Position numbers and translations under genes: made by a program. 29,420 nucleotides of DNA. Origin: a virus. The stretch lies in the IMG/VR virus record IMGVR_UViG_3300031524_000060, positions 1-29,420 of that record; one strand, written 5' to 3'. The notes beneath the pieces are model-generated. The model saw only the letters and a program-made list of their open reading frames with translations, searched no databases and was not told the origin of the DNA. The stretch's first letter is position 1. Every line of letters begins with the position of its first letter. Below are positions 4,527 through 29,302 of the stretch, in pieces.

Positions 4527-4747
4527 TTACGGGCACCTTTCTGCACTCGCAACTGCTGCGAGGCGCTGGGGGTTTCGGGCGCTTCTTCGGTCGGCGCAAC
4601 GGGCTCAGGGGTCTTGGCGGCCTGAGTGTGCTCCGTCACGAACGAGTAGTATTCGCGCGCAGTCTGGACGTAGTTCGGGTTGCCCTGAGTGCGGACAGCC
4701 GCGTCCAAGCAGGCCAACCGAATTTGGGCGTCAGTCATTGTGGTCAT
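4523..4747 (-). CDS. Small hypothetical phage protein
   Basis: 74 residues. The N-terminal part (TDAQIRLACLDAAVRTQGN) looks helical. The C-terminal half is a Pro/Glu/Ala-rich disordered tail (TPEPVAPTEEAPETP) ending in a basic patch. The start overlaps the stop of the HslV-like gene by one base, and its stop overlaps the next GTG. A structural or scaffolding-associated role is possible, but nothing specific can be read. Confidence 0.65.
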   Translation of the reverse strand: MTTMTDAQIRLACLDAAVRTQGNPNYVQTAREYYSFVTEHTQAAKTPEPVAPTEEAPETPSASQQLRVQKGARK

Positions 4748-5187
4748 TAGTCCTCGTTAGGTCCAAGGCGCTCAACTTGAATGCTGCCGCCTGATTGTGG
4801 GTCACGTTTCGTTGCGACACGCACGGCTTCCTCAGCCGTCGCGCCAATGTCGAGAGCGCCATAGGCGTAGGCAGAGCCCGAGCCTATAGCGATGAAGTCC
4901 GTCTCTGCGGGCGAGAAGTCTCCTACGCCCTCATAGACTTTGATCGTCCCATCGACCTCGACGAGGACAGCCGTGAACGGGCTGTTGTCCGCCGTGGGAA
5001 GCTCAGCGTCCTCCTCCTCAAGATACGCGAGGAGAGGAGCCACGTAGGCGTCCTCGCCAGCCAACGCGAACAGCGCGCCGTCCGAGAGCTTGACGATCTT
5101 CAGTGAGTGGTCCGTCAGGATGGTGCCTGAGAGCGTCGAGCGCCCTTCAGCGGCCATCACGCCGTCGCGGTATGCGATGGTAGTCAC
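4747..5187 (-). CDS. HslV/proteasome-like Ntn hydrolase encoded by the phage
   Basis: The 146-residue product starts at a GTG overlapping the upstream stop (GTGA), giving M-TTIAYRDG. After Met removal an N-terminal Thr is exposed, as in HslV and 20S beta subunits. Aligned by eye with HslV, Thr1 is kept, AAEGRSTL matches AGDGQATL (Asp17 replaced by Glu), the Lys33 equivalent is kept in SLKIVKL, and IGSGSAYAYGAL matches IGSGGPYA with the Ser125 equivalent. The fold is somewhat shorter than bacterial HslV (about 175 residues). Known family members are ring-forming threonine peptidases. No HslU/ClpX-type partner is visible nearby, so it may act alone, borrow a host ATPase, or be a structural relic. 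An in-frame extension to 5583 is rejected because it overlaps the kinase gene. Confidence 0.82.
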   Translation of the reverse strand: MTTIAYRDGVMAAEGRSTLSGTILTDHSLKIVKLSDGALFALAGEDAYVAPLLAYLEEEDAELPTADNSPFTAVLVEVDGTIKVYEGVGDFSPAETDFIAIGSGSAYAYGALDIGATAEEAVRVATKRDPQSGGSIQVERLGPNED

Positions 5188-5762
5188 TTGAAGCCGCTCA
5201 TCAGGTTCGCGACGTACCAGACGTTCTTCTTCAAGTCGTCCAGCGCGCCGTCGTTGTAGATGTTGAAGTCGAACTTGTGCTTGTCGAGCAAGCCTTCGCC
5301 AGTTGCAGTGTCCCCACGAGAGCCCACGCCGGGGCGGTGGATGCGGATGCACTTGCCACCGTTCCGACGCACCATCTCGAACTCGTTCGGGAAGCGCATG
5401 TCGTCGAAGATGACGCTGTAGCTCTGGAGAGCCTTCTGCGCCTTCTGCTCCGCCAGCATCGTCCAGAGTTGCGCGTGGATACAGTCGCGGCCCCACTGCG
5501 TCCCGATGCTCTGGAGCATCCAACGCAGCGTCACGCCCAAGTGAGGGATGACGGCCTTGTCCTTGCGCTCGTCGGAGAGCCACTGACGCACTTCCGCCTC
5601 GCCGCCCGGTAGGAACGGCGCAGCGATCTGGATGATGAAGTCGTAGAACGGTGCAGCGAACGACTGCGTGAGCCCGAAGAAGCGCTCCGTGAGCATAGAG
5701 GCCACGGTGGACTTCCCCGAGCGCATGTCGCTGGAGTAGAGAGCAATAAGAACTGGTTTCAC
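5184..5762 (-). CDS. Deoxynucleoside monophosphate kinase-like P-loop enzyme
   Basis: 192 residues from a GTG overlapping the upstream stop (GTGA). The Walker A loop is at the N-terminus (SSDMRSGKST, Lys17). A Trp/Gln-rich substrate region follows (LRWMLQSIGTQWGRDCIH), then SVIFDDMRFPNEFEMVRR, typical of phage dNMP kinases related to T4 gene 1 and T5 enzymes. These enzymes convert dNMPs to dNDPs, feeding the nucleotide pool for phage DNA synthesis in the cytoplasm. The longer in-frame extension to 6008 lies inside the upstream genes and is not used. Placement among replication genes fits the call. Confidence 0.85.
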   Translation of the reverse strand: MKPVLIALYSSDMRSGKSTVASMLTERFFGLTQSFAAPFYDFIIQIAAPFLPGGEAEVRQWLSDERKDKAVIPHLGVTLRWMLQSIGTQWGRDCIHAQLWTMLAEQKAQKALQSYSVIFDDMRFPNEFEMVRRNGGKCIRIHRPGVGSRGDTATGEGLLDKHKFDFNIYNDGALDDLKKNVWYVANLMSGFK

Positions 5763-5953
5763 TTCCAGCGTTCCTCCAAGGTGACTTCGAGCACGAGGTA
5801 CTTGGTGTAGGACCCCTGCTTCTGCTGTTTGGTTAGCTCGCCCTGAGCGACGGCCCGCGACACGTACAGCGCTGGCATCGTGGACGTGCCATAGACGGTC
5901 TTGCAGGCCCCAGTGGCGGGGTTGTGGATCAGGAAGTAGGACTTCCCAATCAC
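5759..5953 (-). CDS. Small hypothetical phage protein
   Basis: 64 residues, start MIGKSYFLIHN, with alternating hydrophobic residues and a C-terminal strand (KYLVLEVTLEERWK), probably a small alpha/beta fold. The ATG overlaps the stop of the nucleotidyltransferase-like gene, and its own stop overlaps the kinase GTG, so it is embedded in a translationally coupled chain. Function unknown. Confidence 0.65.
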   Translation of the reverse strand: MIGKSYFLIHNPATGACKTVYGTSTMPALYVSRAVAQGELTKQQKQGSYTKYLVLEVTLEERWK

Positions 5954-6546
5954 AGAACGAACACCCCTTCCGCCTCCAGACGGTCAAGCGCGATGTTGAC
6001 CATCGCATCGTCCTCAGCGTTCCAGCCGAGCGCCCAACCGATGTACTTGGCCTTGAGGCGCTGGTAGCGCTTCAGGGACCGCATGACGGCCTCGACGGTC
6101 TCCGCACGCGTCAGCGTGAAGACCTCGTTGCGCTTGTCGAAGTCGTAGTCGGCGGTCTTGGTGACGCCCAACGGGTCGAAGCCGATCTGGCACAGACCGA
6201 AGTCCATGCGCTCGATGATGGCGGCAGTGTTGAAGCCACGGTCAAGCTGGACGAAGTTGAGGTCAGGCTGGCCGGTTAGCGAAGCGAACGTGTAGGTCGT
6301 CTGGACCTCTTTCGCCGCGTCGATGTAGTCGCCCGGACACCACTTCTTGTAGACGTAGACGCCAGCCAGAGCCGCGTCGAAGCGAGCGCTGTCCATGTCC
6401 TCCGTGAAGAACACGTCGAGGTCCTTGACGGGGCGGTTGTTGTCGAGGTCGCGGAGCGCGCCACCAGCGAGGTAGGCAGAGGGCGCGACGGTTCGAACGC
6501 GGCTCATGGTGTCGAGCCACGCTTCAGGCAGATGCAGATTGTTCAA
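5950..6546 (-). CDS. Nucleotidyltransferase-like protein (poly(A) polymerase/CCA-enzyme head domain)
   Basis: 198 residues, probably from a TTG overlapping the previous stop (TTGA); the first ATG would remove 13 residues but keep the domain. The motif AGGALRD (Gly28, Gly29, Arg32, Asp33) followed by VKDLDVFF (Asp42, Asp44) and later PDLNFVQL (Asp95) is the catalytic layout of class II polymerase-beta superfamily nucleotidyltransferases. Unlike true CCA-adding enzymes (over 350 residues) it lacks the large RNA-binding part and has only a short helical C-terminus (RYQRLKAKYIGWALGW). It may modify a tRNA, a protein or a small molecule; the substrate cannot be read. It lies in the replication operon between small phage genes. 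Confidence 0.8.
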   Translation of the reverse strand: MNNLHLPEAWLDTMSRVRTVAPSAYLAGGALRDLDNNRPVKDLDVFFTEDMDSARFDAALAGVYVYKKWCPGDYIDAAKEVQTTYTFASLTGQPDLNFVQLDRGFNTAAIIERMDFGLCQIGFDPLGVTKTADYDFDKRNEVFTLTRAETVEAVMRSLKRYQRLKAKYIGWALGWNAEDDAMVNIALDRLEAEGVFVL

Positions 6547-7036: not shown

Positions 7037-7257
7037 GCGCGCCACCACTTCCAAGTGTTCCGAACGTGGATCACGAGCATGGTCACGTTGAGCGGCAACA
7101 GGCCCCACAGGTCCATGTGGACCATGAGGGTCCACCACGGCACCTGAGCGCACACTCCGAGCACTGGCCCCCATACGCGCTTCGAGCCGTAGAGCCACGA
7201 GCTAATGATGGTCAGTGCCGATGCGGCGAACTGACAAGCTAAGCTGGCGGCGTCCAA
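7033..7257 (-). CDS. Small membrane protein (PnuC-like two-helix segment), start uncertain
   Basis: About 74 residues if started at TTG 7257; a start at 7287 is also open. Hydrophobic stretches around FAASALTIISSWLYG and PVLGVCAQVPWWTLMVHMDLW, followed by PLNVTMLVIHVRNTWKWW, resemble part of the membrane core of PnuC-type nicotinamide riboside transporters, but the protein is far too short to be one. Comparable short proteins occur in many phage genomes with unknown function. It overlaps the end of the exonuclease gene. Confidence 0.6.
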   Translation of the reverse strand: MDAASLACQFAASALTIISSWLYGSKRVWGPVLGVCAQVPWWTLMVHMDLWGLLPLNVTMLVIHVRNTWKWWRA

Positions 7258-8033
7258 AGGATCGGCTCCTTCTTCACTGCATCCCAATCGCTGTTGCGGA
7301 GGATGCGGGCCATACGCGCCTGCTTGAGCGCGTCAGCCTCAGTGAGCCCGCGAGCCTCGTAGGCCGCCTTGACGCACTTCCACAGTTCCTCAGCAGAGGA
7401 CTTCTGGTGAATGGTCGAGAGGATGGCCTGAGCCTTCTTGGGTCCTGTACCCGGCAGGCCGGGGTAGCCGTCCGCCGTGTCGCCCACGAGAACCTGATAG
7501 AAGAACCACCAGTCCGCTTCGTACTTGTCGATCTTCTGGACCGCCTTGTTGTCGTATAGCGTGCAAGGAATGGTCTTCATGTCCTTGTCCGCCGAACAGA
7601 TGATGGTGTTCGCATCCCGCGTGGCGAAGATGCCCATCACGTCGTCCGCCTCCAGCCCATCGAACTTAAACGAGGGCCAGGTATCCTCCGCGCGCTTGAG
7701 GACTTCCATGTAGGCGACGGGTTTCCGCGTGTCCTTGCGGTTCTGCTTGTAGGTCGGGTCCACGTCGTAGCGGAAGTTACGGCCCGCCGAGATGCACAGG
7801 AGCACGTCGTCGGTCTCGAACTTGTCCGTCAGGCGCTTGATGGCCCGCTCTACGCCGCCGAAGGCTTCCCCGGCGTCACTGACGAGCGTGTGGGTGTTGG
7901 CGTCAGTCTCGTCACCCGTGACGGATGACCACTTGATGTCCCTCTCAACGGCGGCGCACTGTCTGAAGATAACAAGGTCCGCGTCGATCAGGAGCTTCGG
8001 CGTCTTCAGCGGTACACGCTGACTTGCAACCAC
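7239..8033 (-). CDS. 5'-3' exonuclease, T7 gp6-like (FEN1 family)
   Basis: 264 residues from a GTG start. The N-terminal LLIDADLVIFRQC holds the first metal-binding Asp. GLEADDVMGIFA and CSADKDMKTIP provide the further carboxylates. VGDTADGYPGLPGTGPKKA is the helix-3-turn-helix that tracks DNA in flap nucleases. In T7 the homologous gp6 removes RNA primers and helps degrade host DNA and recombine concatemers. Its size is close to that of T7 gp6 (about 300). It follows DNA polymerase in the operon, separated only by a short HTH gene and a tiny open frame. Confidence 0.92.
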   Translation of the reverse strand: MVASQRVPLKTPKLLIDADLVIFRQCAAVERDIKWSSVTGDETDANTHTLVSDAGEAFGGVERAIKRLTDKFETDDVLLCISAGRNFRYDVDPTYKQNRKDTRKPVAYMEVLKRAEDTWPSFKFDGLEADDVMGIFATRDANTIICSADKDMKTIPCTLYDNKAVQKIDKYEADWWFFYQVLVGDTADGYPGLPGTGPKKAQAILSTIHQKSSAEELWKCVKAAYEARGLTEADALKQARMARILRNSDWDAVKKEPILWTPPA

Positions 8034-8281: not shown

Positions 8282-10348
8282 TCAGTGGCAGTCGCGCCAA
8301 TTCCGACCGATCTTGAACTCACTCGCGAGTGGCACACGGAAGCCGAGCTTGACGCCTGCTTCTTGGGCGCACGCAACGAGCGTTTGACCGACTTCTTCTG
8401 CAATGGATTTCCTACATGCTATCTGTTGCTCGTCGTGGACCCACAGCATCACCACGAAGTCCCTGCCCCACACGTAGCCCTTCGCTTCGAGGGCGTCCGT
8501 CGCATCGCAGAGCCACTGCTTGCACAGGATGGCCTCGATGCTAGAGCACGCGAAGTTGAGAGCGGAGTGGTCAGAGCGACATGGCACCAGCCGGTCGTCG
8601 AGACCGGGCAAGTGGTTCTTGAAGTGCTTCATGCACGCCTTGAGCTTCGCGTGCAGCTTGCCGAGCTTCAGTTTCTCGTCGAAGCTCTTGCGGACTACCG
8701 TGCCCACTTCCTTGTCGGAGCGGATGCGGATAGCGCCCTTGGCGGTCGTGGTCTTGAAGAACTTGTCGAACAGTGAGCCCCATTCGGGGTTCTTGTTCCT
8801 CGCCGTTATCAGGCAGTCGCGGACGACGCGCCCGGACTTGGGAGGGAAGCAACCGAATAGGTAGGAATACCCGAATGTCTTCGCACCCTTCTCTCGAAGG
8901 ATGTTGTGAAGCTCACTGTGCTTATCACGAGGCTCATCAGGGCCAACGAGCCCCATAGCCTGCGTATGCGACCAGTGAACGTCACCGCTTGTGACGATGT
9001 TGGAATACGTTCCTCCGTCTAGTGGGTGAAGGAGATGAGCCAGAGCGCGAAGCTGGAGGCCGCTCATGTCGGCTCCGACTTGCACAATCTCCTCGTCAGC
9101 GCCTCCCCAGCCCGCCTGCGTGGTCGTGATGCCGTTCGGGCCGAACAGTTCGCGGCACTCAGCGCCGTAGGGAGACTTCGAGGCTGGCACTTGCCCCATG
9201 TTGGGGCTGAAATGCGATGCGCGGCTGTGGACGGTCCCCATCGGGTCCATCGCGCCGTGTATCTTGTGGTCCTCAGTGTTGACCTTCTTCAGCCACGCGT
9301 TGTCGCCGTCAGCCAACTGCCCGAGCCGCTTGTCGAGCAAAAGGTACTCGACGAGCTTCGTGGCCTGCGGGTACACGTCGCCAATGCCTTGAAGCACGTC
9401 GTCGTCCAGCTTGGCCTCGCCGCTCTCCGTGAACTCGTTGGGCTCCCAGCCAAGCTCCTTCAGCTTCTTGATGCTGTGGCGGCGGCTGGAGGGGTTGTAG
9501 GTGACGGGCTCAATCTTCGTGAGCGGGTAGCCCTTGAAGACCTTCTTGTGAACGGGCGAGCCGAACTCGTCCTCGCATGTGTACTCAGCGTACTCGCCCC
9601 AGTACCCGGCCTTCTTGTCAGGCCGCTTGGGCGTCCACGTCTTCGCGCAGCCCTCAGCGTCGAGGGACTTCGTGACGGGCTCGTACCACGTCCCGAACTG
9701 AGCGATGAGGTCCTTCGCGATGAGGTCCTGCTTGCCCAGCAGCGCGACGTGAAGCTCCTGAGCCGCCTTCTCGTCGAACCAGACGCCTGCTGCCTCCATG
9801 CGGCGGCAGAGGATAGCGATGCGGTGCTCAAGCTCGATGGCACGCTGGCTGTAGGTGTCGGGCTTCAGCCAGTCCCACAAGGCGTCCTGCACGTCCACGT
9901 CGCTTTCGCAACGCTCCTGCATCTCTGGTGTGAACTCGCTCCAGTCCTCGATGTCGGCGTGGAGCTTCTGCACCCCGAGACGATAGCCCCATGCCTCGAT
10001 GCTGTGCTTGCCGTGGAGCTTGCCGGGCAGACGCCCAGCCTTCACCAAGCCCGCATCGCTGTCCTTCTGCGAGGGGCGCATGACCTTGACCACGACGTAG
10101 CTATCCACCTTCTTCTCCCGAGCGGGAGCGAAGCCGTGGAGCTTTTCAAGCACAGGGAAGTCGTAGACGATGCCGAAGTGGGCGATGAGCTTGTCCGCCT
10201 TCTCCAGCGTCTCAAGAGCCTGCGGGATTTGGTCAGGCCCCCAAGCGAACTTCTCCTTGGTGTCCACGTCCTTTGCATTGATGCAGTGGAGCTTAGTCAC
10301 CACGTCGAGAAAGCCATTCGCCTCGATGTCGAAGTGAAGGCGCTTCAT
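8282..10348 (-). CDS. DNA polymerase, family A, T7 gp5-like
   Basis: 688 residues (T7 gp5 has 704). The N-terminal 3'-5' exonuclease domain is complete: FDIEANG (Exo I), HFGIVYDFPVL (Exo II) and CESDVDVQDALW (Exo III). The polymerase domain has motif A GADMSGLQLRALAH, motif B in ILREKGAKTFGYSYLFG and motif C MLWVHDEQQIA. It replicates the phage genome, in T7 with host thioredoxin as clamp; whether a thioredoxin-binding loop is present was not established. It overlaps the upstream 75-aa membrane protein gene by ATGA. It is placed downstream of primase-helicase as in other members of the group. Confidence 0.97.
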   Translation of the reverse strand: MKRLHFDIEANGFLDVVTKLHCINAKDVDTKEKFAWGPDQIPQALETLEKADKLIAHFGIVYDFPVLEKLHGFAPAREKKVDSYVVVKVMRPSQKDSDAGLVKAGRLPGKLHGKHSIEAWGYRLGVQKLHADIEDWSEFTPEMQERCESDVDVQDALWDWLKPDTYSQRAIELEHRIAILCRRMEAAGVWFDEKAAQELHVALLGKQDLIAKDLIAQFGTWYEPVTKSLDAEGCAKTWTPKRPDKKAGYWGEYAEYTCEDEFGSPVHKKVFKGYPLTKIEPVTYNPSSRRHSIKKLKELGWEPNEFTESGEAKLDDDVLQGIGDVYPQATKLVEYLLLDKRLGQLADGDNAWLKKVNTEDHKIHGAMDPMGTVHSRASHFSPNMGQVPASKSPYGAECRELFGPNGITTTQAGWGGADEEIVQVGADMSGLQLRALAHLLHPLDGGTYSNIVTSGDVHWSHTQAMGLVGPDEPRDKHSELHNILREKGAKTFGYSYLFGCFPPKSGRVVRDCLITARNKNPEWGSLFDKFFKTTTAKGAIRIRSDKEVGTVVRKSFDEKLKLGKLHAKLKACMKHFKNHLPGLDDRLVPCRSDHSALNFACSSIEAILCKQWLCDATDALEAKGYVWGRDFVVMLWVHDEQQIACRKSIAEEVGQTLVACAQEAGVKLGFRVPLASEFKIGRNWRDCH

Positions 10349-10580: not shown

Positions 10581-12188
10581 CTAAAGAGCGGCGAGCACTG
10601 GCGTTGCGAGCCAGCCTGTCTGCCTGTTGTAGATGAGGGTGTCGGCCACGCCGGTATCTCCGGTCTCGCGGCATTTCAGAACGCGGATGATGCTCTGATC
10701 CTTCAGGTCTTCTTCGGCCTGTTGGTCCCGCTCCAGCGCCAGCACGTTAAACGAAAGCTGCTCAAGCGCCGCTGAGCCGCGTAGGTCGCTCAGGGAGATG
10801 CTGGAGCCCTCGTTGAAGCTCTTGTCCTTCGCCCGCTTGAGATGGACGATGGCGATGATGCCGACGCCGGTCTCCTGCACGAGCGAAGCCAGCTTCGTCA
10901 TGAGGATGTCGATGTCCTTGCGCTCGCCCTCGCTGCTGCTCTCCATGCCTGACGTGACGATGGAAATGTGGTCGAGGAAGATGAAGTCGCACTTCTCGAC
11001 GGTCGCCATGTAGCGGAGCTTGGCGATGAGGTTGGCCTGCTCCAGCGAGCCGAAGTGGTTGTAGAAGCTCATCCGCTGGTGAATGACCTCAGCAGCCGTT
11101 GCGGCGTATTGCTCCCTCGTGAGGAGCCCTGAGTTCGCGCGGAGCTTCGAGAGTGGGATGGAGTGGTGAAGCGCGACGTAAGCCTTCGCGGTCTTCTTGA
11201 ACTGCTCCTCCAAGAACACGTTGCCAATCTTCAGGCCGTGCGTCTGGTGGAGGTTGTAGGCGATCTGGCGTGCCCAAGTGGACTTGCCGATGCCTGAGCC
11301 AGCCGTGAGGAGCGTTAGCTCGCCCTTGCGCCAGCCCATCAGTTTATCTTGAAGCTCTGGACACCCGTCGATGTCGTAGCCGGGAGCCATCTCCTCCATG
11401 AGGTCGTCAACGGAGATGTCGGCACCGTTCACGATGCCATCGGGACGCCACGGCTTCGCCTTCCAGAACGCATCCACCAGAGCGGCGGGGCCGTCCTTCA
11501 GCAGGACCTCGTTGGCGTCCTTGCGGCCCAACACGGCGATCTGCACCTTGCCGACCGGCAGGGCTGCTGCGGCTTCCTCAGCCGCAAGGCGTCCGGGCTC
11601 GTCCTGATCGAACATGAGGACGATCTTCTTGAAGCGGTCCAGCCACTCGTAATAGCGCTGGCAGTTGTAGGCCGCGTCCTTCGAGCCATTGGGTAGCGAG
11701 ACGACGGCGTACTTGTGCTTGAACGCCTGCGAGACGCTGAGCGCGTCTATCTCGCCTTCCGTGATGACGACACTGAGGTCCCCGCCTGCCAGCCACATGC
11801 CATAGAGGGGCATGTCCTTGCTACCGTTGATGCACTGGAACTTCTTGCCAGCGCGCCTGATCTTCTGAGCGACCAGTTCGCCGCCTTCGTCGCGGTAGTT
11901 CGCAATGTGGCACTTCTCATCCACATTGATCTGGTAACCCCACTTCTCCAGCGTCTCGCGTGTCAGCCCTCGATCATTGAGGTCCGCGTAGATGCCAGTC
12001 TTGTAGTCCTTCGAGATGCGCTGTTCCTTTCGCTCGTATGTGCCATCAGTCGGAGGCTCCCAATGCCCACAGCCCATGCCGAAGCACGAGGCAGAGCCAT
12101 CCAGGTATCGACCTAGATTGTCTTTGCTCCCGCACTTCGGGCATGGTTCTTTGTGGGAGAAGCCAGCGCTCTCGCGCTTAGGCCGCAC
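10581..12188 (-). CDS. DNA primase-helicase, T7 gp4-like
   Basis: 535 residues from GTG. The N-terminal zinc-binding motif has Cys16, Cys19, Cys35 and Cys40 (CPKCGS and CFGMGCGHW). A TOPRIM primase domain follows, with TEGEIDALS (Glu145) and MFDQDEPGR (Asp194, Asp196). The RecA-like hexameric helicase has Walker A GSGIGKST (297-304), Walker B in FIFLDHIS and the QLSFNVLALERDQQ arginine-finger region. It unwinds DNA and lays primers at the phage fork. T7 gp4 ends in an acidic tail with a terminal Phe that docks the polymerase; here the end is GWLATPVLAAL, so that contact must differ. It overlaps the upstream HTH gene by 11 bp. Confidence 0.96.
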   Translation of the reverse strand: MRPKRESAGFSHKEPCPKCGSKDNLGRYLDGSASCFGMGCGHWEPPTDGTYERKEQRISKDYKTGIYADLNDRGLTRETLEKWGYQINVDEKCHIANYRDEGGELVAQKIRRAGKKFQCINGSKDMPLYGMWLAGGDLSVVITEGEIDALSVSQAFKHKYAVVSLPNGSKDAAYNCQRYYEWLDRFKKIVLMFDQDEPGRLAAEEAAAALPVGKVQIAVLGRKDANEVLLKDGPAALVDAFWKAKPWRPDGIVNGADISVDDLMEEMAPGYDIDGCPELQDKLMGWRKGELTLLTAGSGIGKSTWARQIAYNLHQTHGLKIGNVFLEEQFKKTAKAYVALHHSIPLSKLRANSGLLTREQYAATAAEVIHQRMSFYNHFGSLEQANLIAKLRYMATVEKCDFIFLDHISIVTSGMESSSEGERKDIDILMTKLASLVQETGVGIIAIVHLKRAKDKSFNEGSSISLSDLRGSAALEQLSFNVLALERDQQAEEDLKDQSIIRVLKCRETGDTGVADTLIYNRQTGWLATPVLAAL

Positions 12189-12796: not shown

Positions 12797-13237
12797 CTAC
12801 TTCTTGGTGGGTTTCTTCAGGTCTTTGATCCACGAAGCAGGCACAACGCCCCTGTCCGCCCACGTAAAGCCGTGGTCGTCCGCCCATTTGGCGTAGGTCG
12901 TCTTGCTGCCTTTGTAGATCGGCTTCTTCGCGTCCTGAAAGACGATGCGGATGTCGAGGTCAGGATGCTGCTCCTTGAGGAGGATCATCTTCTGACGCTC
13001 TTGCGCGCCGTTGCTGTCAGACCTAAAGCCGCCGAAGCGGCCCTTGGCCTCAATCAGGATTTTCGTGTTGCGAATGGTGAAGTCAGGGAGGTACTTCGCC
13101 TCCCTTGCCGGGACGGTGTAGTGGACCCACTGACTTTCGTAGTCGTAGGACACACCCGCATCGTCAAGCTGGTCCGCAACCTTCTTCTCTAATCGGGAGC
13201 GATACCGAGCCTCAACGAGGATCGGCTTGCTTGCCAT
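12797..13237 (-). CDS. Endonuclease I, T7 gp3-like Holliday junction resolvase
   Basis: 146 residues (T7 gp3 has 149). The PD-(D/E)XK active site is complete: Glu17 in YRSRLEKKVADQL, PDFTI (Asp52), and IEAKGRF (Glu63, Lys65). The T7 enzyme forms an intertwined dimer that resolves branched DNA and degrades host DNA to supply nucleotides. Its start overlaps the stop of the ssDNA-binding protein gene (TGATG), matching the gp2.5-gp3 order of T7. Confidence 0.94.
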   Translation of the reverse strand: MASKPILVEARYRSRLEKKVADQLDDAGVSYDYESQWVHYTVPAREAKYLPDFTIRNTKILIEAKGRFGGFRSDSNGAQERQKMILLKEQHPDLDIRIVFQDAKKPIYKGSKTTYAKWADDHGFTWADRGVVPASWIKDLKKPTKK

Positions 13238-14285: not shown

Positions 14286-14430
14286 GCTCCTTACGAAGGT
14301 TGCGCTCGATGGTCTGCACGTCGATACCAACGCTCATCATCTTGACGGCGTGGTCGTATGGGATTGCCCCGTCGCGTTCGACGTAGGCACGGGCCTGAGC
14401 GAGCAGGCTACGCAAATGCGTATTTTGCAT
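14272..14430 (-). CDS. Small hypothetical phage protein (52 aa)
   Basis: Starts MQNTHLRSLLAQARAYVERD within the last codons of the RNA polymerase gene (23-bp overlap) and ends RNLRKEHGLD. It is predicted to be all-helical, with the central GIDVQTIERNLR resembling a small HTH or anti-parallel helix pair. Early T7-like genes just after the polymerase often encode small host-takeover proteins, but this is only context. The upstream extension lies in the polymerase frame and is not used. Confidence 0.55.
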   Translation of the reverse strand: MQNTHLRSLLAQARAYVERDGAIPYDHAVKMMSVGIDVQTIERNLRKEHGLD

Positions 14431-16894
14431 TGAGCACTTCCTTGATGTTGAGGTTTCCGTATTCGATTGCAGAAGGCAACCGACTGCTATCGTGTTCAAT
14501 CAAGTCACACGTCGCCCGTTGAAGGACTTCGGCCAGCACGTCGTGCGTCTCGTACATCTCCACGAAGGTCTCGCGGATGATGCCTTGGAAGCGCGCCGCT
14601 TGGCTTGGCAGACAACCGAAGCTGTCATGCACCAATGCGAACTGAGTGATACCTTCTCGAACTCCCGCAAGCACCGTGAGGAGCAAGTGGGCCGCATCGC
14701 AGGCGTGAACGAAGTTGGGAGCAGCCCCGTTCACGGCGCGTTTCTTGTCGATGTCCTTCTGGTGGCCGGTCGCGACGATGGGGCGATAAGGCACCCGAAC
14801 GCCGTGGTCGTGCATCCAGAGGCGCAACTGCTCAGTGGTGGACGCATGGTAGCGGTTGCTCCACGGCAGTCCCGTAGGTGTGACCCACTGGAGAGGCATC
14901 CCTGCGTGAGCCATTGCGGCAGCGCAGTCCTGCAAGAACTCCATGGCCGCCATAGCGCGCGGGGCGACTTTGGCGATGGCTTCGCTGGCGTGCTTGGCGA
15001 GGAAGGTCGAAGCGGCGCGATGCTCGCCCCACGTCTTACCGAAGGGATGGGCCTTGCGCTTCTTCTTCAGCACGTCACGCTTCAGCGGCTCCATGAGGTC
15101 GTCCATGTGCTGCTGCGCCAGCCCGAACTTCTTCGAGCCGTAGAACGTCGTCATGACGTTGCGCTTGAACAGCTTGCGCCAGTCACCGTCGTAAGCCAGC
15201 ACGAGCGCTGCCAGAGGGTCTGGTGAAGCAGCGATGGCTTCACGGGCCGCGCCGCCGACCTTCAGGTACACGTCGCGCGGCTCAGGGAGGTCCGTGAGGT
15301 TAACTTCGCAGCCTTCCTCCGCGCGTGTCATGGCGCTGAGATGTTGCAGACCAGAACACGAGCCGTCCCACGAGCACGGTAACGAACAGACGTACTCCGG
15401 CCCATAGCTCAGGGCCTTGGTAAGTTCGACGCAGGCCGCGAGGAACAGGAAGGGTTTGTCGGCCTTGGTCCAGAACTCCAAGCCCGTGTCGGAGAGAGGG
15501 CCGTTGTGCTCCCAATCCTGCATCGCGCAGTTCTGGATCGCCGTGATGTTGTCGTCGGTCCATTTGATCCGTTCCTCGTAGGACTTCTTCGATACCTTTT
15601 CGAAGTCGCCGCAGTTCGCCACATGGACCTTGAGCCATGCGATGCCCTCCTCCCCGATGGCTTCACCATCCTTGAAAAGGAACAACGCACGCACGCGGTC
15701 TTCGCGCTGGAAGTTGAAGTTGGTCATCGGGTACTCACGCCCGCGCCAGTCGAGATTGTGAGGGATGTAGAACTGCGGACGCTCAGCGAGAGCGTCAGCG
15801 GTCTCCATGTCCTCGACGTAGCGCAGCCGGTCAGCCGCGAGCGTCCGGTTCTCCTTCTTGATTTCCGAGCGCTCTTGCCTCGCCAGCTTCTTCTCGTCCT
15901 CGTCCAGTTCTTCCCAAGGCTTCTCAAGCGCTGGAAGCTCGACGTTGGTCGCAGGCGGAAGGCCCTCGACCTCGATGCCGCGCCGCTGGCACTCCTTGAT
16001 GACGTTGAGGATGGTGGTGTTGATCCTCCATCCCGTCGCTTGCACAGCATTCAGCGCGTCGAGCGCTGGCTGCATCTGCCCGTTCCTGATCGCCGCCTTG
16101 ATCGCTGCGATGGTTTCACGGTGCCGCGTGCGTACCAGAGCGCTGAGCTTCTGCGCCACAGGGTCGATAGGTCCGCCCTTGTTGAAGTCGGTCCACGGTA
16201 CAGGGGGCTGCACGGTCGGCAGGAACACAGGGTTCGCCTTGATGAACTGCTGCATCGCCCGCTGAGCGAGGTCACAGGCCCCGTCGAGGATGTTGAGATG
16301 GCGAACGTCGCCGCGCATCTCGCTCTCGAACAGGTCGGGCAGCGTCTCCAGCAAAATGTCCTGCACGAAATTGCCGACCGCCACGAGTTGCGTGGGCTTC
16401 CACTGGTTGACGAACGAGAAGCCCTCCTTCTTCGCCGTCGAGCGCGCGGACTGCACACGGTACTTCAGGTTCCCGTGCTTCTCCTTGACCCACTTCTCGA
16501 TCTTCTCCGCCAGCTTCTCATCGTGGTTGCGGAGGTCGTGGGCGAACAGTTCGTGGTTCAAGGCGCGGCCCGTGCGCTCACAGATCGGCACGAATGGCAG
16601 ATCGGCCATCACGCCGTCGAGGGCGTTGTTGATGGCGACCAGCGCAATGATCTGCGGCGGGATGCACTTCAGCAGCCTGTGAACGGCCTCGTCCCAGACC
16701 TTCGTGGGCTTGACAGGCTCATCCAGCTTGGCAGCAATGGCGTCCGAAAGGCGCTCGTAACAAGTCTGCGCTATGTGAAGCGCTTCTTCAGTGGCCCCAT
16801 AGCCAAAGTTCTTGGCCGTGCGGTTTTGTAGCTTCAGGAAGCGGTCTTGGGCAGCTTCGAGTTCGGCGGAGGTCGTCGAGGTCATGAGGTTCAT
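14408..16894 (-). CDS. Single-subunit DNA-dependent RNA polymerase, T7-like
   Basis: 828 residues (T7 has 883). Catalytic motifs are intact: motif A WDGSCSGLQHLSAM (Asp510, equivalent to T7 Asp537), motif B KRNVMTTFYGS (Lys577 and Tyr585, equivalent to Lys631 and Tyr639), motif C LVHDSFG with the second catalytic Asp, and the C-terminal foot ...YAFA, like the FAFA end of T7. It transcribes middle and late phage genes from phage-specific promoters, which could not be identified here. It is the first gene of the long - strand operon, 232 bp from the + strand zinc-ribbon gene; this gap should contain the host-recognised early promoter. Presence in a prophage implies tight control, since expression would be lethal. 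Confidence 0.97.
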   Translation of the reverse strand: MNLMTSTTSAELEAAQDRFLKLQNRTAKNFGYGATEEALHIAQTCYERLSDAIAAKLDEPVKPTKVWDEAVHRLLKCIPPQIIALVAINNALDGVMADLPFVPICERTGRALNHELFAHDLRNHDEKLAEKIEKWVKEKHGNLKYRVQSARSTAKKEGFSFVNQWKPTQLVAVGNFVQDILLETLPDLFESEMRGDVRHLNILDGACDLAQRAMQQFIKANPVFLPTVQPPVPWTDFNKGGPIDPVAQKLSALVRTRHRETIAAIKAAIRNGQMQPALDALNAVQATGWRINTTILNVIKECQRRGIEVEGLPPATNVELPALEKPWEELDEDEKKLARQERSEIKKENRTLAADRLRYVEDMETADALAERPQFYIPHNLDWRGREYPMTNFNFQREDRVRALFLFKDGEAIGEEGIAWLKVHVANCGDFEKVSKKSYEERIKWTDDNITAIQNCAMQDWEHNGPLSDTGLEFWTKADKPFLFLAACVELTKALSYGPEYVCSLPCSWDGSCSGLQHLSAMTRAEEGCEVNLTDLPEPRDVYLKVGGAAREAIAASPDPLAALVLAYDGDWRKLFKRNVMTTFYGSKKFGLAQQHMDDLMEPLKRDVLKKKRKAHPFGKTWGEHRAASTFLAKHASEAIAKVAPRAMAAMEFLQDCAAAMAHAGMPLQWVTPTGLPWSNRYHASTTEQLRLWMHDHGVRVPYRPIVATGHQKDIDKKRAVNGAAPNFVHACDAAHLLLTVLAGVREGITQFALVHDSFGCLPSQAARFQGIIRETFVEMYETHDVLAEVLQRATCDLIEHDSSRLPSAIEYGNLNIKEVLNAKYAFA

Positions 16895-17377: not shown

Positions 17378-18670
17378 TCAGAGCGCCTTGAGGACTTCCC
17401 GGCTGTAGTCTAGCCGCTCGATGGCGGCGCGGAGGTTCACGCGCTGGCCCTGCGAGTAATGGCCGTAGGTCATGCTCTCTCGCTTGTGGCCCACGAGGAG
17501 CTTGACGGTGCTCTCTGGAACCTCAGCGCCCTCCATGTGGTCGATGAAGGTGTTCCGCAGGGCGTGGAAGTCCTCGCCTGCCCCATCGACGCCCACGGCC
17601 AGCCGGTAGCGCCCATACGCCTTCGAGACGTACCACGAGCGCTTGTCGTCAGGCCCACCAGCCTCCAGTCCCTCGAACAGGAACTCCCCAGCGCCCTTCA
17701 GGCGGCGCTCGACGAGCGGCACCATCGCCCCGTGCAACGGGACCTCGCGCTTCGCCGCGTCCGTCTTGCCGCCCTCAATCTCCAGCCAGTAGCCGTCCGC
17801 GCGCTTGTGGACGCCCTTGCGCTTGAGCGCACAAAGCTCCTCCAGCCGCGCGCCAGTGAACAGGGCGAGGCGCAAGAGGTCGTGCAGCGCGCTTCGGAAC
17901 TTCTCCGTCGCGTAGCTCCCGCTGAGGAGCTTCACTATCTGCTCGTCGCTCAGGCCCTTGCGGAACTTCACGCCTGACTTCTTCCCGAGCTTGTGGCGGA
18001 GCCATACGTTGTCCTGAGCGTGGCCCTTGGCTTCGAGCCACTGCCAGAACTGCGAGAGCGAGGACAGATGACGCTTGACCGTCCTGCGGGCCAGCCCTGA
18101 GTTCGCCAGTAGCTCGCTGACGTACTCTCCAGCCCTCTTGCGCGGCGTGTCCTCGACGGTAGCGAACTCGCCTGCCCATCCGAGGAAGCGCTTCACGGTG
18201 CTCGCGTGTTGCACCTTCGTTTGCTCCGCAACCTCGACCTCCGAAATCCATGTCGCGTAATGGTCCCGCAGGATCGTCCCCTGCCCCGTGGCGACCTTGT
18301 AGACGCCCTGAGCAAGCTCCCTGTCCTTCTCAGCCAGTTGACGGGAGAGCGCCAAAACTTGATCCCGAAGCTCCCCAAAGATGATGCTATCCTCACCATC
18401 GTCACGGCGCGCAGCGTCGAGAGCGGTCTTCCATTCGGAGGCGTCCCGCAGTGCCGCAGCTTTCGGGTTCGAATGTTGTTTCAGGTTCTCGATACGCCGC
18501 AGGAATTCCGCGACGTGGGGATGCTTCAGGCGGTTCGCCTCAGCGAGGCTGGAGGTCTTCAGGGACGCCTTGAAGCGGCGTGGGACCTCACCCTTCTTGA
18601 TGAGCGCCTTGGGCACGTTGACCACGACATGCCACGTCTGGTCCTTCTTAATCAGGTACTCGTTTGCCAT
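17378..18670 (-). CDS. int: Tyrosine integrase of the T7-like prophage
   Basis: 430 residues, start MANEYLIKKDQTWHVVVNVP, with an N-terminal beta region typical of phage integrases and a core-binding helical domain (about 130-225). The catalytic set is complete: Arg275 in TGARLEELCAL, Lys302 in GGKTDA, His369 and Arg372 in HALRN, His395 in VGHKRES and Tyr405 in GHYSQG. It recombines attP with the chromosomal site. It starts 89 bp from the 17-bp attachment repeat at 18760. It is transcribed in the same direction as the replication operon and upstream of the RNA polymerase, as reported for integrase-bearing T7-like phages. It shares little with the second integrase in the window beyond the active site. 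Confidence 0.93.
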   Translation of the reverse strand: MANEYLIKKDQTWHVVVNVPKALIKKGEVPRRFKASLKTSSLAEANRLKHPHVAEFLRRIENLKQHSNPKAAALRDASEWKTALDAARRDDGEDSIIFGELRDQVLALSRQLAEKDRELAQGVYKVATGQGTILRDHYATWISEVEVAEQTKVQHASTVKRFLGWAGEFATVEDTPRKRAGEYVSELLANSGLARRTVKRHLSSLSQFWQWLEAKGHAQDNVWLRHKLGKKSGVKFRKGLSDEQIVKLLSGSYATEKFRSALHDLLRLALFTGARLEELCALKRKGVHKRADGYWLEIEGGKTDAAKREVPLHGAMVPLVERRLKGAGEFLFEGLEAGGPDDKRSWYVSKAYGRYRLAVGVDGAGEDFHALRNTFIDHMEGAEVPESTVKLLVGHKRESMTYGHYSQGQRVNLRAAIERLDYSREVLKAL

Positions 18671-20528: not shown

Positions 20529-22295
20529 TCAAGGGGCCTTCGGCCGCGGCAGGAGCGGGATTCCCCAGAGGTCGTACGTCGGAAGCAAATCCCAATCGTC
20601 GGGTGCGTCCGGAAGGACCGTCTCGGCGCGGCTGTTCCGGAGGCCTGCGGCCATCCGCAGAACGGCGAACATGCCCCCCCGGGCGAGCAGAGGATTTTTT
20701 TCGACCAGCACCCGTGCAGCGCGGGCGATCGTGATCCGATGCTCCGCTTGGGTGCTGCGCGCGCTCAGTCCGGATTGATGGCGCGCGTTCGCCCCCTGGA
20801 ATTCCTTCTCCTCGGCCTTGAGTGCGTGTCCGGACGCGGCCCGGGCACCCCGTGTCTTCAGGACCTCCCCCTGCAACTTGTGCAGCCGCGCTTCCAGCGT
20901 CGGCCTCTCCGGATCATGAGTTGGCCAGAAGAGGCGATACCAACTTGACCGCGGTTTGCCGTCGCTAAGCTTCCGAAGTACTTCGTCGGCCTGCGCCTCA
21001 AGCGCCCGCAGCCGCGCAGCATCTTCCTCGGCCTTCCGCCGGGCAGCGTGAAGCGATGCCGGCTCCGGAAGCCACGCCGTCCGGCTTGCCGCCAACGTCT
21101 CAGTTTCAATCACGTCGTCGAGATCTGACAGAGTTCGTTCCATTGGCGGCAAAGCTGCTCGCCGGGCCACTGCCAAGAGATCAAGCAGTGCACCTTGATG
21201 CCGGACACAGCCCGATGCGAGGGTCAGCCATTCGTGGTCGCCGCCGGTCCGTCCAGACGGGATTCCAGATTCTCCAGCCGGGCGCGAATCTGTTCGATCC
21301 CGCCGACCGTCTGGCGCAGCAGTTCGATGACCGTATCCATCGGGTGCGGTTGGTCCGGGCCGTCGCTGCTCGCCGCCAGCTTCGACACCGGCTCCATCTG
21401 CTCCGACAGCCGCTTGAGGAGAGAATACGTGGCTTGGTGGATCGTTCGTTTGGTCTGTTGATTGGCCTGCTGCATTGAATGCCATCCTCTCCGCTAGTGC
21501 GCTCTTCCGAAGCCTCGTCAATCGGGCGAGTGACCCGACGAGCGTGCCGTCCCCGACCGTCTCAACGACCGGGGCGTCGGTTCTGTCCCCCGTCCGCAGA
21601 CGCAGAACCATCATTGACAATCTCGCGTCGAAATCGCTTCGATCCGTCGCTGCTGACAGCGCGTCCGAAATCATCACCCGCAGACGCGGCAGGTCGAAGC
21701 CCTCCCGCTTGAGGCGCTGCTGCGCCATTTCGTCGAAGCTCTGCGAGTGAGCGGCGGGAGCAATATCGCGTAGCGCATTCGCTGTATCGGTAAGCCCCTC
21801 CCGGTCAAGCGCTGCAACCACGGCATCCGCGTGAGCACCGGCGACTACGTCGTGGCCCCACAGGACCTCGACCGTCCGCGCAAGCTTTTCGTGTCGCCTC
21901 CAGTCATGGCTTGACGACATGACCCCGCCCGTAAGCGGATCAATTTCCGGCGCGCACAGGTGGTAATGTTCTCTACATCCATCTTCGGTTGCGCGATCCT
22001 TCGTGTGCTTCCAGAGCGCAATGCGCCGCTTCGGATCAAAGCCAAATTCGGCCGCTAGGCGGTGCACAAGTTCCGCAAGCTGCTCGGTCGAAATCGGTTC
22101 GGCCGGCGAGATTATCCAGTGGCGAACAGCATATTCCCGACCGAACCGTAGGGCGTCGTTCCTTGCGTCTTCAAGATCAGCGACGTTACCGCAGACCAGT
22201 TCAACGGCGTCGTTGTCGTCGCCATTGGCAAGATGCTGCAGCGACCGTTTCAGCCCCTGGCCTCTCGCCTTGACGCGTTTTGATTTGATAATCAT
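20529..22295 (-). CDS. mobA: Relaxase (mobilization nuclease)
   Basis: 588 residues from the ATG that overlaps the MobC stop (ATGA). The N-terminus MIIKSKRVKARGQGLKRSL and the three-His metal site, His97 followed by His110 and His112 in HTKDRATEDGCREHYHL, are typical of plasmid relaxases of the MobA/VirD2 type. The nucleophilic Tyr was not pinned down. Residues about 270-380 are low-complexity (TAPDGYGHRTAAPDGRRDRT) and the C-terminal part is a long helical, coiled-coil-like region. The enzyme would nick oriT and pilot the strand through a helper secretion system. The gene symbol is by family only. Confidence 0.82.
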   Translation of the reverse strand: MIIKSKRVKARGQGLKRSLQHLANGDDNDAVELVCGNVADLEDARNDALRFGREYAVRHWIISPAEPISTEQLAELVHRLAAEFGFDPKRRIALWKHTKDRATEDGCREHYHLCAPEIDPLTGGVMSSSHDWRRHEKLARTVEVLWGHDVVAGAHADAVVAALDREGLTDTANALRDIAPAAHSQSFDEMAQQRLKREGFDLPRLRVMISDALSAATDRSDFDARLSMMVLRLRTGDRTDAPVVETVGDGTLVGSLARLTRLRKSALAERMAFNAAGQSTDQTNDPPSHVFSPQAAVGADGAGVEAGGEQRRPGPTAPDGYGHRTAAPDGRRDRTDSRPAGESGIPSGRTGGDHEWLTLASGCVRHQGALLDLLAVARRAALPPMERTLSDLDDVIETETLAASRTAWLPEPASLHAARRKAEEDAARLRALEAQADEVLRKLSDGKPRSSWYRLFWPTHDPERPTLEARLHKLQGEVLKTRGARAASGHALKAEEKEFQGANARHQSGLSARSTQAEHRITIARAARVLVEKNPLLARGGMFAVLRMAAGLRNSRAETVLPDAPDDWDLLPTYDLWGIPLLPRPKAP

Positions 22296-22597
22296 CTGAT
22301 GTTCGCGAGATGTCGCGCGGCGATCGCGCGCAAGTCCTCGGCCGTTTCCTTCACGCACGCAGCGATCACCGCCGGGTCCGCGTCCGGAGCCTCCACCAAC
22401 GTCGCCAGCCTATTGGCCGCCGTCCGGACAAGCACCAAGTCCGACAGCATAGGGCGCGAGGTGATCCGTCCTGAAGCTGCTGCGCGGCCCGCGCGCCGCA
22501 ATAATTCTGAGACCGTCGTGCCGGCCCTCGCAGCGGCATCGGCGATCAACCTCTTGTCCGCAGCGGCAACCCGAAACTTGATCAACCCGCCTTGCAT
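22292..22597 (-). CDS. mobC: MobC-like relaxosome accessory protein
   Basis: 101 residues starting MQGGLIKFRVAAADKRLIAD. A ribbon-helix-helix N-terminus (IKFRVAAADKRLIADAAARA then TVSELLRRAGR) is followed by a helical domain with AANRLATLVEAPDADP and CVKETAEDLRAI, the usual MobC arrangement. These proteins bind oriT and help the relaxase melt the nick region. AAGGCGAGC precedes the ATG, and its stop is coupled to the relaxase start. An in-frame extension to 22747 runs through the putative oriT hairpins and is not used. Confidence 0.82.
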   Translation of the reverse strand: MQGGLIKFRVAAADKRLIADAAARAGTTVSELLRRAGRAAASGRITSRPMLSDLVLVRTAANRLATLVEAPDADPAVIAACVKETAEDLRAIAARHLANIR

Positions 22598-23039
22598 GCT
22601 CGCCTTGCTTTCCTTCGGGGTCCACGGGGCGGAGCCCCTGAAGCTGCTGCGGGGCCACGTCCCGCATGGCTTGCTGTTCGTTTCGCTTTCTCGAAGTCGT
22701 TGCCACGAAGCCGGAATCAAAATGAATCCGAAGCCGACAACTAGCAAGGGTCTGTGGCCACGAATGTTTCAGGTCAGGAGGAAGATGACGTAGCGGCTAC
22801 ACAGTGATTATTTCCTGCGTCCCATCTCGACGGGCCGCGGCGGCTTCACGGATGAAGGCGTTCGGTCCCGCCGCAGATTAAATACTTTGCCAAAGCGCTT
22901 GCGCACCTGCCGGCTCAATTTCAACCATCGGCCGACCGACGACGTTCGAACGGGGGGTCCTGCCCCAGCGCGGCTCGGAGACCATTCGATGTGCAACCGG
23001 AAGCGGAACGAAGCGCGATCCTCTGAGATGACCCGACTG
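22598..23039. other. Intergenic region upstream of mobC with candidate oriT
   Basis: No supported gene. Two GC-rich hairpins lie close to mobC: GGGGC-GGA-GCCCC (22626-22638) and GCGGG-7 nt-CCCGC (22649-22665). oriT usually lies directly upstream of mobC/mobA, and such inverted repeats flank nic sites. The nick sequence itself was not identified. The remainder to 23039 shows only weak short frames. Confidence 0.45.
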
Positions 23040-24140: not shown

Positions 24141-24689
24141 CTACGCGCGAAGTCGCGATATCGTGCTGTGCGAGACTGCGAAAGTCCGAGCAATCTCTGT
24201 AAGCACTTCGCCGGCAGCGCGGCGCTCCAACGCCTCACGCCTCTGATGCGCGGTAAGTTTAGGCTTCCTCCCCAGCCTCACCCCCCGCGCCTTTGCGCGC
24301 TCGCGGCCCTCGCTCGTCCGGCTCAGGATCAGTTCGCGTTCAAATTCGGCCAGGCCGCCCAAGATCGTCAGCATCAAGCGCCCGTGCGGCGTCGTTGTGT
24401 CGGCCCAGGTATCGCGCAGCGACTTGAACCCCGCCCCGGCGTCGTTGACGGCCGCCAGCGTATTCAGCAGATCGCGAGTGGACCGCGCCAGACGGTCAAG
24501 ACGGGTCACAACCAACACGTCGTCCGGAACAAGCGCCTTGATCGCACGCCCCAATTGGGTGCGCTCGGTAACCGCCCCGCTAACCTTCTCTTGAAACACC
24601 GTGACCACGCCCGCCGACTTCAGTTCGGCCACCTGTGCGTCCAAAGTCTGACCGTCGGTCGAGACCCTCGCATACCCTAGAAATGCCAT
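24141..24689 (-). CDS. Serine recombinase (resolvase/invertase family)
   Basis: 182 residues from ATG 24689, preceded by GAGG; an extension to 24746 crosses the res-like site. MAFLGYARVSTDGQTLDAQ carries the nucleophile Ser10 after YARVS. VVTRLDRLARSTRDLL and the GRLMLTILGGLAEFERELI helix complete the small-resolvase catalytic domain. A C-terminal HTH (EVLTEIARTFAVSHSTISRL) follows. It probably resolves dimers of the excised circle or acted in an ancestral transposon. It lies next to the site-like repeats at 24705-24786 and the non-coding repeat block. Confidence 0.9.
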   Translation of the reverse strand: MAFLGYARVSTDGQTLDAQVAELKSAGVVTVFQEKVSGAVTERTQLGRAIKALVPDDVLVVTRLDRLARSTRDLLNTLAAVNDAGAGFKSLRDTWADTTTPHGRLMLTILGGLAEFERELILSRTSEGRERAKARGVRLGRKPKLTAHQRREALERRAAGEVLTEIARTFAVSHSTISRLRA

Positions 24690-27336: not shown

Positions 27337-29196
27337 TCACTTCTTCGTCGGTGGGGGCGTCTTCTTCCTAGAAGCCTTTTTCTTCATCTCCCGTTCTGCG
27401 AGCGCGACATAGCGCGCCAACTCGCGGTCACGCCCCGGCGCTGGCTCGTTGCGGGGGCCTGAGTATTTGAGATGGCTGAGGTCGGCATTGATGCTGATTG
27501 TGTTCACGCAACGCCGCAAGATCGGCAGCCAGATGGCCTTGGTGTAGCGCGAACCTTCACTCCGCCGGATCGGCGATTCATGACCGATCAGTTCGTCGAT
27601 CCAGCTTTCCTTGATGCCCGGTGCGTTTTTGAGGGCCGTTTCTACGTTTCCTCGAAACGAGTGAAAATCAACCTTGGGAAGATAGCACCCGGAATTCATA
27701 CGCAGGGTAGTGAATTTTCCACTGAACGCCGCCGACCTGCGGGAGCCCGGACCCTGCTCGATCAATTCCGGGAACAGCGGTTCTTCAGGATTTCGACCGA
27801 GGACTCGATATTCAAGAAAGCCCGCTTCGAGGAGTAAATCCGGGACGGGAACGTTGCGCTCAGAGCCGGAATCCTTCCCGTCGATGATTTCGAGGTAGGG
27901 GATTCGACCGCCGTCGGTGCCTTCAAATTTGATGGCTCCAACGAGAGCGTCGGCGATTTCATTCTCGCGAACACCGGTCAATCGTCCCCAGAGCGTCACC
28001 CAGAACATGCCATCGTGGTGAATCTCGTTGCCCGGAATTGCACGTCGATGAATCGACTTGCAACCGCGTATCCACGGGGCTGAGAAGAACTTGTTCTCCA
28101 GCGCCAACGGCCAATTGTGTCGCTCGTTGCGCGCACCACGGCCTTTTTTCTTCGGAGTGTGGAATCCCTCGAATGGATTGGCGATCTCTGCCGCAACGAG
28201 CTTCTTCTCGACAAGGTAATCCCAGTATTCGCCGAGGTTTGCGAAGTGCTTATTGACCGTTCCGATGGCCACCATCGCGATCTGCTTCTTCGGATGCTTC
28301 GGCGCAACGGCCAGCCGCTTCGCTTTCGCGATCATCTCGGGAATCGGCATGACAGCCCAGTCGCCGCGCGAATAGTCTCTAGGCATCGAAAGGAGCGTGG
28401 TCTTGAAGTCCGAGGCGAGCGCCGTGACGCAAATTTGGCGGATCGTGGCGTCGGGGAACAAGCGCTTGAAGACGTTGTGGGAGCCCCGCGCGTTGGCCGC
28501 CGTGTCCGTTTTCCAAGCGTGATTGGTCACTTTGTGGGCTTCGAAGGCGCTCCAATGCATCAGAAAGTCGAAGGTCGGGTACACGATCTGGCTGCTGGTC
28601 GTGATGTGCTTCGGAATCGAAGCGACCGTGTCGCGCATCTCGTCGAGCAACGTCGAAAAGCCCCGCAAGATCGTTCGCGCCCAGAGCCGCCCATCGACGG
28701 TCGACCTATCGACCGACTGCTCCATCGATATCGCCGCCGCTTGGATGATCGGTTCAAATCGCGAGCCGTCGCCCTGGCCGCGCAGCACGGCGGCGATCTC
28801 CTGCCTTTGATGGTCCGCATGAAAGTTGTCGGCGAACCTGAGCAAGCCATCAAGTTCGCGGGCGTCCTGTTCCCCCATCGCCGCGATCTCGCCGGTATCC
28901 AGGAAATCGAAGCCATTGGTCGCGGCCCGGCGCACCTCATGCGCCCAGACTCGCTCGTCGATCCAGGCGCGGACGGTGCTTTCGACCATGCTTCTTGATG
29001 GATATGGGCGTTGCATCAGCAGGGTCTCGATTTTGATCGATAGGATCCGGGCTCGCCATAGAGCGACCCGTCGGTCGGCGGTCTGGAGCGAGCGAATAAG
29101 CTCGCCCGGGCCGCCGCGACCCGCAAGCCGGACGGGCCAGCGGTATCGAAAAAACCATGTACAACCGCGTCTACGAAGATGATGACCTTGCCCCAA
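27337..29196 (-). CDS. int: Tyrosine integrase of element 2
   Basis: 619 residues if started at TTG 29196, which follows GGGAG at 7 bp and leaves the arm motif outside the gene; the frame is open to TTG 29274. The N-terminus HHLRRRGCTWFFRYRWPVRL and IRSLQTADRRVALWRARIL is the entry domain common in long proteobacterial integrases. Catalytic residues (619-aa numbering) are Arg410 in TGVRENEIADAL, Lys441 in DGKDSG, His512 and Arg515 in FHSFRGN, His539 in IGHES and Tyr551 in SRYTKA. A basic tail ends SRKKTPPPTKK. It lies 107 bp from the right core. It is much longer than the prophage integrase and is not a duplicate of it. Confidence 0.9.
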   Translation of the reverse strand: MGQGHHLRRRGCTWFFRYRWPVRLAGRGGPGELIRSLQTADRRVALWRARILSIKIETLLMQRPYPSRSMVESTVRAWIDERVWAHEVRRAATNGFDFLDTGEIAAMGEQDARELDGLLRFADNFHADHQRQEIAAVLRGQGDGSRFEPIIQAAAISMEQSVDRSTVDGRLWARTILRGFSTLLDEMRDTVASIPKHITTSSQIVYPTFDFLMHWSAFEAHKVTNHAWKTDTAANARGSHNVFKRLFPDATIRQICVTALASDFKTTLLSMPRDYSRGDWAVMPIPEMIAKAKRLAVAPKHPKKQIAMVAIGTVNKHFANLGEYWDYLVEKKLVAAEIANPFEGFHTPKKKGRGARNERHNWPLALENKFFSAPWIRGCKSIHRRAIPGNEIHHDGMFWVTLWGRLTGVRENEIADALVGAIKFEGTDGGRIPYLEIIDGKDSGSERNVPVPDLLLEAGFLEYRVLGRNPEEPLFPELIEQGPGSRRSAAFSGKFTTLRMNSGCYLPKVDFHSFRGNVETALKNAPGIKESWIDELIGHESPIRRSEGSRYTKAIWLPILRRCVNTISINADLSHLKYSGPRNEPAPGRDRELARYVALAEREMKKKASRKKTPPPTKK

Positions 29197-29208
29197 AAGT
29201 GCGCTCCC

Positions 29209-29230
29209 GTGGACCAAAAGTGTGGACCAC
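29209..29230. repeat. Right arm-type motif of element 2
   Basis: GTGGACCA occurs at 29209-29216 and 29222-29229. Read in reverse complement the block matches the left motif at 18849-18870, and it lies exactly 72 bp from the right core, mirroring the left end. It lies just upstream of the preferred integrase start. Confidence 0.65.
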
Positions 29231-29302
29231 CGCGCGGACGGGGAGACGGGACAAGGCGCAAGCCATTGAAGCAACGAGGGAATTACGAAAGCCGGGATGG
29301 AC

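Follow-up and report, generated by a model that had tools for sequence, protein, structure and literature searches.

The proteasome-like proteins of tailed phages and prophages were named and described in 2021 as the PPH family (PMC8665760). PPH proteins are about 140 residues long, have no propeptide, lack helix H2 and carry a Thr1, Asp17 and Lys33 active-site triad; the family counts 324 sequences at nr90 (PMC8665760). A single helix where HslV has two is a published mark of PPH and RPC proteins, and BPH (beta-proteobacteria proteasome homologue), which belongs to Group I, has no known unfoldase (PMC8665760). The proteasome triad consists of Thr1, Lys33 and Asp/Glu17, and the E17A substitution inactivates the Thermoplasma beta subunit (PMC4792962). 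Our search of the open-access literature returned no functional study of PPH or phage HslV proteins and no report of PPH activity.

PPH has already been described in many phages, and the gene reported here is an ordinary family member. It lies in IMG/VR record IMGVR_UViG_3300031524_000060, positions 1 to 29,420, a viral stretch of 29,420 nt (29.4 kb) that we call the window. A preliminary description had marked the stretch 4747-5187 without giving a strand; it holds a real gene, which we place on the minus strand. The open reading frame runs from 5187 to 4747 with the product (M)TTIAYRDGVMAAEGRSTLSG..., and we rejected a plus-strand reading because stops interrupt the frame. The product start given earlier, M-TTIAYRDG, is correct, with the GTG codon read as (f)Met and followed by TTIAYRDG. 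The gene and its key codons are as follows.

4747..5187, minus strand: gene for a proteasome-like Ntn hydrolase of the PPH family; 146 aa from a GTG start, with Thr2 as the predicted nucleophile
5179..5187, minus strand: start codon and Thr-Thr codons (GTG ACT ACC), without a propeptide
5146..5148, minus strand: codon GAA, which encodes Glu14 at the position equivalent to Asp17; all 121 other distinct homologues have Asp here
5098..5100, minus strand: Lys30, the Lys33 equivalent, kept in 121 of 122 homologues

Methionine aminopeptidase takes off an initiator Met that precedes Thr, and this removal is predicted to make Thr2 of the window protein N-terminal, as Thr1.

The protein fits the already named PPH family, separate from HslV proper. 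It is 146 aa long with Thr directly behind the start codon, T7-like genes flank it, and T2, K30 and E14 supply the triad when Asp and Glu are taken as equivalent (PMC4792962). Its match to Pfam PF00227 (Proteasome) scores 35.1 bits where the cut-off is 22.4, PHROG 1040 ('peptidase HslV family') is hit with an E-value of 6.8e-33, and a 10-homologue profile run against the PDB picked out HslV and 20S beta chains, the best at E 8.4e-14; with these scores the family match is not due to chance. Single-sequence queries of viral and genome contigs yielded zero relatives for want of shared patterns; an alignment query recovered them, with about 500 candidate stretches in IMG/VR encoding relatives. Deposited phage records contain relatives in 36 cases, each below 60% identity, and the genomes span 55-208 kb; none of the PPH-bearing records found there is T7-sized, and a search of plasmid sequences for PPH relatives gave no match. 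Among close relatives the median dN/dS of 0.12 (775 non-independent pairs) indicates purifying selection on PPH.

The AlphaFold2 model (82 sequences; pLDDT 96.6, pTM 0.90) has a proteasome-like fold, its structure matches in BFVD are other phage proteins of the same kind, and among solved structures it superposes best on HslV chains (Z 17.0-18.8, 2.1-3.3 A, 139-144 residues). The best HslV superposition reaches Z 18.8 and 2.1 A over 139 residues, 20S beta chains superpose at Z about 17, and residue 2 of the model pairs with chain residue 1 in most HslV and 20S rows. Helix H2 is absent: after helix 46-57 the chain passes through loop 58-71 into strand 72-76. The preliminary description had called the product a proteasome-like (HslV-type) Ntn hydrolase and proposed comparing a predicted structure with HslV and 20S beta subunits; at Z about 17 to 19 the Ntn fold holds, as do the active-site residues, while the assignment to HslV gives way to PPH.

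With PPH proteins the window protein shares a length of about 140 aa, the missing propeptide and H2, the phage or prophage context and the Thr-Lys-Asp/Glu site; it differs in having Glu14 rather than Asp, a T7-like genome and a coupling to deoxynucleoside monophosphate (dNMP) kinase. With HslV (ClpQ) it has the fold, Thr1, Lys33 and Ser125 in common, but it is about 30 residues shorter, has one helix fewer and has no HslU gene found alongside. The Asp166-Ser169-Gly-Gly motif of 20S beta subunits is matched by D129..S132 G133 G134, and Thermoplasma 20S beta carries Glu17 much as the window protein carries Glu14; unlike 20S beta, the window protein lacks a propeptide, a C-terminal extension and an alpha subunit. 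RPC-like proteins of large Klebsiella, Vibrio and Aeromonas phages are 32-39% identical to it in their N-terminal part, but they are 266-304 aa long and the window protein has no such extension. A profile built from the window homologues matches BPH, and both lack a known unfoldase, whereas BPH is about 200 aa long and chromosomal.

The catalytic residues are strongly conserved. Thr1, Asp17, Lys33 and Gly47 correspond to T2, E14, K30 and G44, HslV Ser125 (20S Ser129) to S103, and Asp166 and Ser169 to D129 and S132. Thr1, Lys33 and Ser125 had been reported as kept and Asp17 as changed to Glu, which is what we see; the Gly47, Asp166 and Ser169 equivalents are present in addition. Across 122 distinct aligned homologues, Thr2 and Asp/Glu14 are invariant (122/122 each), with Lys30 in 121/122, Gly44 in 110/122, Ser103 in 115/122, Asp129 in 116/122 and Ser/Thr132 in 118/122. 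Because the initial search patterns took in the N-terminus, we retested conservation without it, using a degenerate C-terminal DNA pattern and a profile that left out the first 17 residues. This gave 46 matching ORFs, 43 of them with a readable N-terminus, in which residue 2 is Thr in 36/43 and Ser in 7/43 (counted by hand; several are near-identical) and position 14 is Asp in 43/43. Conservation of Thr2 had been named as a point on which the earlier reading might fail; every one of the 43 readable homologues has Thr or Ser there, so the nucleophile is conserved, and it is the Glu14 of the window protein that stands out. PPH-like proteins with Ser in place of Thr as the predicted nucleophile occur in L173, L180, L192, L207, L179, L204 and L225.

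Glu14 is unique to the window protein among the 122 distinct aligned homologues. An inactive enzyme is not the reading we favour, since the Thermoplasma 20S beta subunit is active with a natural Glu, confirmed in its PDB chain, which reads ..IMATERR.., and Glu14 therefore does not imply loss of function. It could nevertheless reduce activity, or reflect an error in sequencing. The substrates of Ntn hydrolases vary widely, which leaves some room for a different reaction, either ligation of the connectase kind or an amidase activity. Connectase proves that the fold is capable of ligation (PMC8665760), but the window protein retains the active-site set of proteolytic beta subunits and its model has no visible connectase-like S3/S4 insertion, so we regard a non-protease function as very doubtful.

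The genome context places the gene in a DNA-metabolism run of a T7-like phage, as the following features show.

5184..5187, minus strand: 4-base GTGA overlap of the dNMP kinase stop and the PPH start, read from the sequence
5184..5765, minus strand: dNMP kinase, 193 aa as scanned (PF21448, 48.7 bits, cut-off 27.1; PHROG 139, E 5.5e-36)
5950..6546, minus strand: nucleotidyltransferase-like protein (PHROG 1614), upstream in the same gene run
7239..8033, minus strand: 5'-3' exonuclease, from the family scan
8282..10348, minus strand: DNA polymerase, aligned with homologues in related contigs, which we take to be of the PolA/T7 type
10581..12188, minus strand: T7-type primase-helicase, from the family scan
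12797..13237, minus strand: phage endonuclease I (T7 gp3 type), from the family scan
14408..16894, minus strand: single-subunit T7-type RNA polymerase, from the family scan
17378..18670, minus strand: tyrosine integrase, from the family scan

Read from right to left, the minus strand encodes integrase, T7-type RNA polymerase, a ssDNA-binding-like protein (weak hits), endonuclease I, primase-helicase, DNA polymerase, exonuclease, nucleotidyltransferase, dNMP kinase and PPH; past PPH, the plus strand carries an endolysin and other late genes. Both context claims of the preliminary description survive: RNA polymerase, primase-helicase, endonuclease I and exonuclease share the gene run with PPH, which is in that sense inside a T7-like operon, and the proposed translational coupling involves a real kinase (PF21448, PHROG 139) joined to PPH by the GTGA overlap. 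The kinase-PPH pair is retained in the four nearest relatives, L013, L014, L094 and L093 (5/5 with the window), with overlaps of 4, 4, 4 and 1 bases. Five PPH-bearing records encode a T7-type RNA polymerase (the window, L014, L093, L097 and L015), and the window and L014 also carry an integrase. To the right of the integrase, on the minus strand, lie a MobA/VirD2-type relaxase (20529-22301) and a NikA-like mobilization protein (22292-22699), probably bacterial or mobile-element DNA past the prophage end. A serine resolvase/invertase gene occupies 24141-24686 on the same strand, and two tyrosine recombinase-like genes, 27337-29274 and 17378-18670, both on the minus strand, have DUF6538 near their N-termini; the 645-aa tyrosine recombinase-like protein gives only a weak integrase match.

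Elsewhere the neighbourhoods of PPH vary. The proposed check on homologues in other phages turned up many PPH-bearing phages with differing surroundings. TerL lies within 5 kb of PPH in 44/123 loci, with PPH upstream in many temperate-phage contigs; in large phages the genes close to PPH include those for PhoH and ribonucleotide reductase. Many temperate-phage contigs show the order PPH, putative metallopeptidase PF18894, DUF2280, TerL and DUF4055 protein (for example L008:8001-9060). The PF18894 metallopeptidase stands between PPH and TerL in 20/22 loci of one TerL type and 0/22 of another; this pairing is lineage-specific and we rejected it as an explanation here, as it does not apply to the window. 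In Aeromonas phage 2L372D two distinct HslV-like genes lie next to each other (L011:2432-3885), the first with a short insert near its N-terminus and no Pfam match. The position of PPH upstream of terminase and portal-region genes in many temperate-phage contigs might suggest processing of capsid or scaffold proteins, as had been proposed for this gene. Coupling to dNMP kinase in the window lineage and the PhoH and ribonucleotide reductase neighbours in large phages argue against it, and no prohead protease is known to be required by T7-type capsids. With this gene in a DNA-metabolism block and other PPH genes in varied places, we set the capsid proposal aside as most improbable.

The absence of a nearby ATPase partner, also noted earlier, extends beyond this locus: HslU was found neither among the neighbouring window ORFs scanned nor in 40 other PPH-bearing records (0/40, mostly fragments). 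PPH might then dock on host HslU or another host unfoldase, redirect it and supply the protease chamber, and the HslV chains as closest solved folds, together with those 40 records that yielded no unfoldase, are consistent with such an arrangement. Yet the loss of H2 (PMC8665760; single helix 46-57 in the model) and a length about 30 residues below that of HslV indicate that the HslV ring surface is altered in PPH, and we consider docking quite unlikely.

The explanation we favour, and think rather probable, is that this PPH-family Ntn hydrolase, with an exposed Thr nucleophile, is an ATP-independent peptidase made with nucleotide and replication enzymes. Removal of the initiator Met would expose Thr as the nucleophile, Lys30 would serve as the general base, with Glu14, which replaces Asp17, orienting it, and Ser103, Asp129 and Ser132 would surround the N-terminal amine. 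From the lack of an unfoldase in the PPH family we infer action like that of an uncapped proteasome or BPH particle, in which an oligomer or small assembly would hydrolyse peptides or unfolded or specific proteins without ATP. Isolated proteasome subunits are inactive before assembly (PMC8665760), which counts against this explanation. Activity, assembly, ATP independence and timing are all inferred; the protein is most likely an ATPase-independent threonine peptidase, and, judged from sequence and model, this enzyme of an integrase-bearing T7-like phage probably works as a protein cutter. Alternatively, PPH could serve in counter-defence or host takeover, as a selective protease that cuts one host protein early in infection. 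Its place in the early/middle DNA-metabolism run and the spread of PPH across unrelated phages with differing neighbourhoods speak for such a role, but we noticed no defence-linked neighbour and there is no known target, and we rate it unlikely.

What is modestly new is the occurrence of PPH in a T7-like lineage bearing RNA polymerase and integrase, with the kinase-PPH coupling kept; the T7-like lineage, the dNMP kinase coupling and the Glu14 variant are the distinguishing features of this PPH. The gene is small, its translation is coupled to that of a known enzyme, and the T7-like genome around it is compact, which makes it convenient for testing PPH function. Tentatively, and as a possibility that falls short of likely, integrase-bearing T7-like phages may use a proteasome-like peptidase, encoded in a nucleotide-metabolism translation unit, to act without ATP on one particular protein, of host or phage origin, during takeover. 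If true, this would give a viral proteasome homologue its first functional role.
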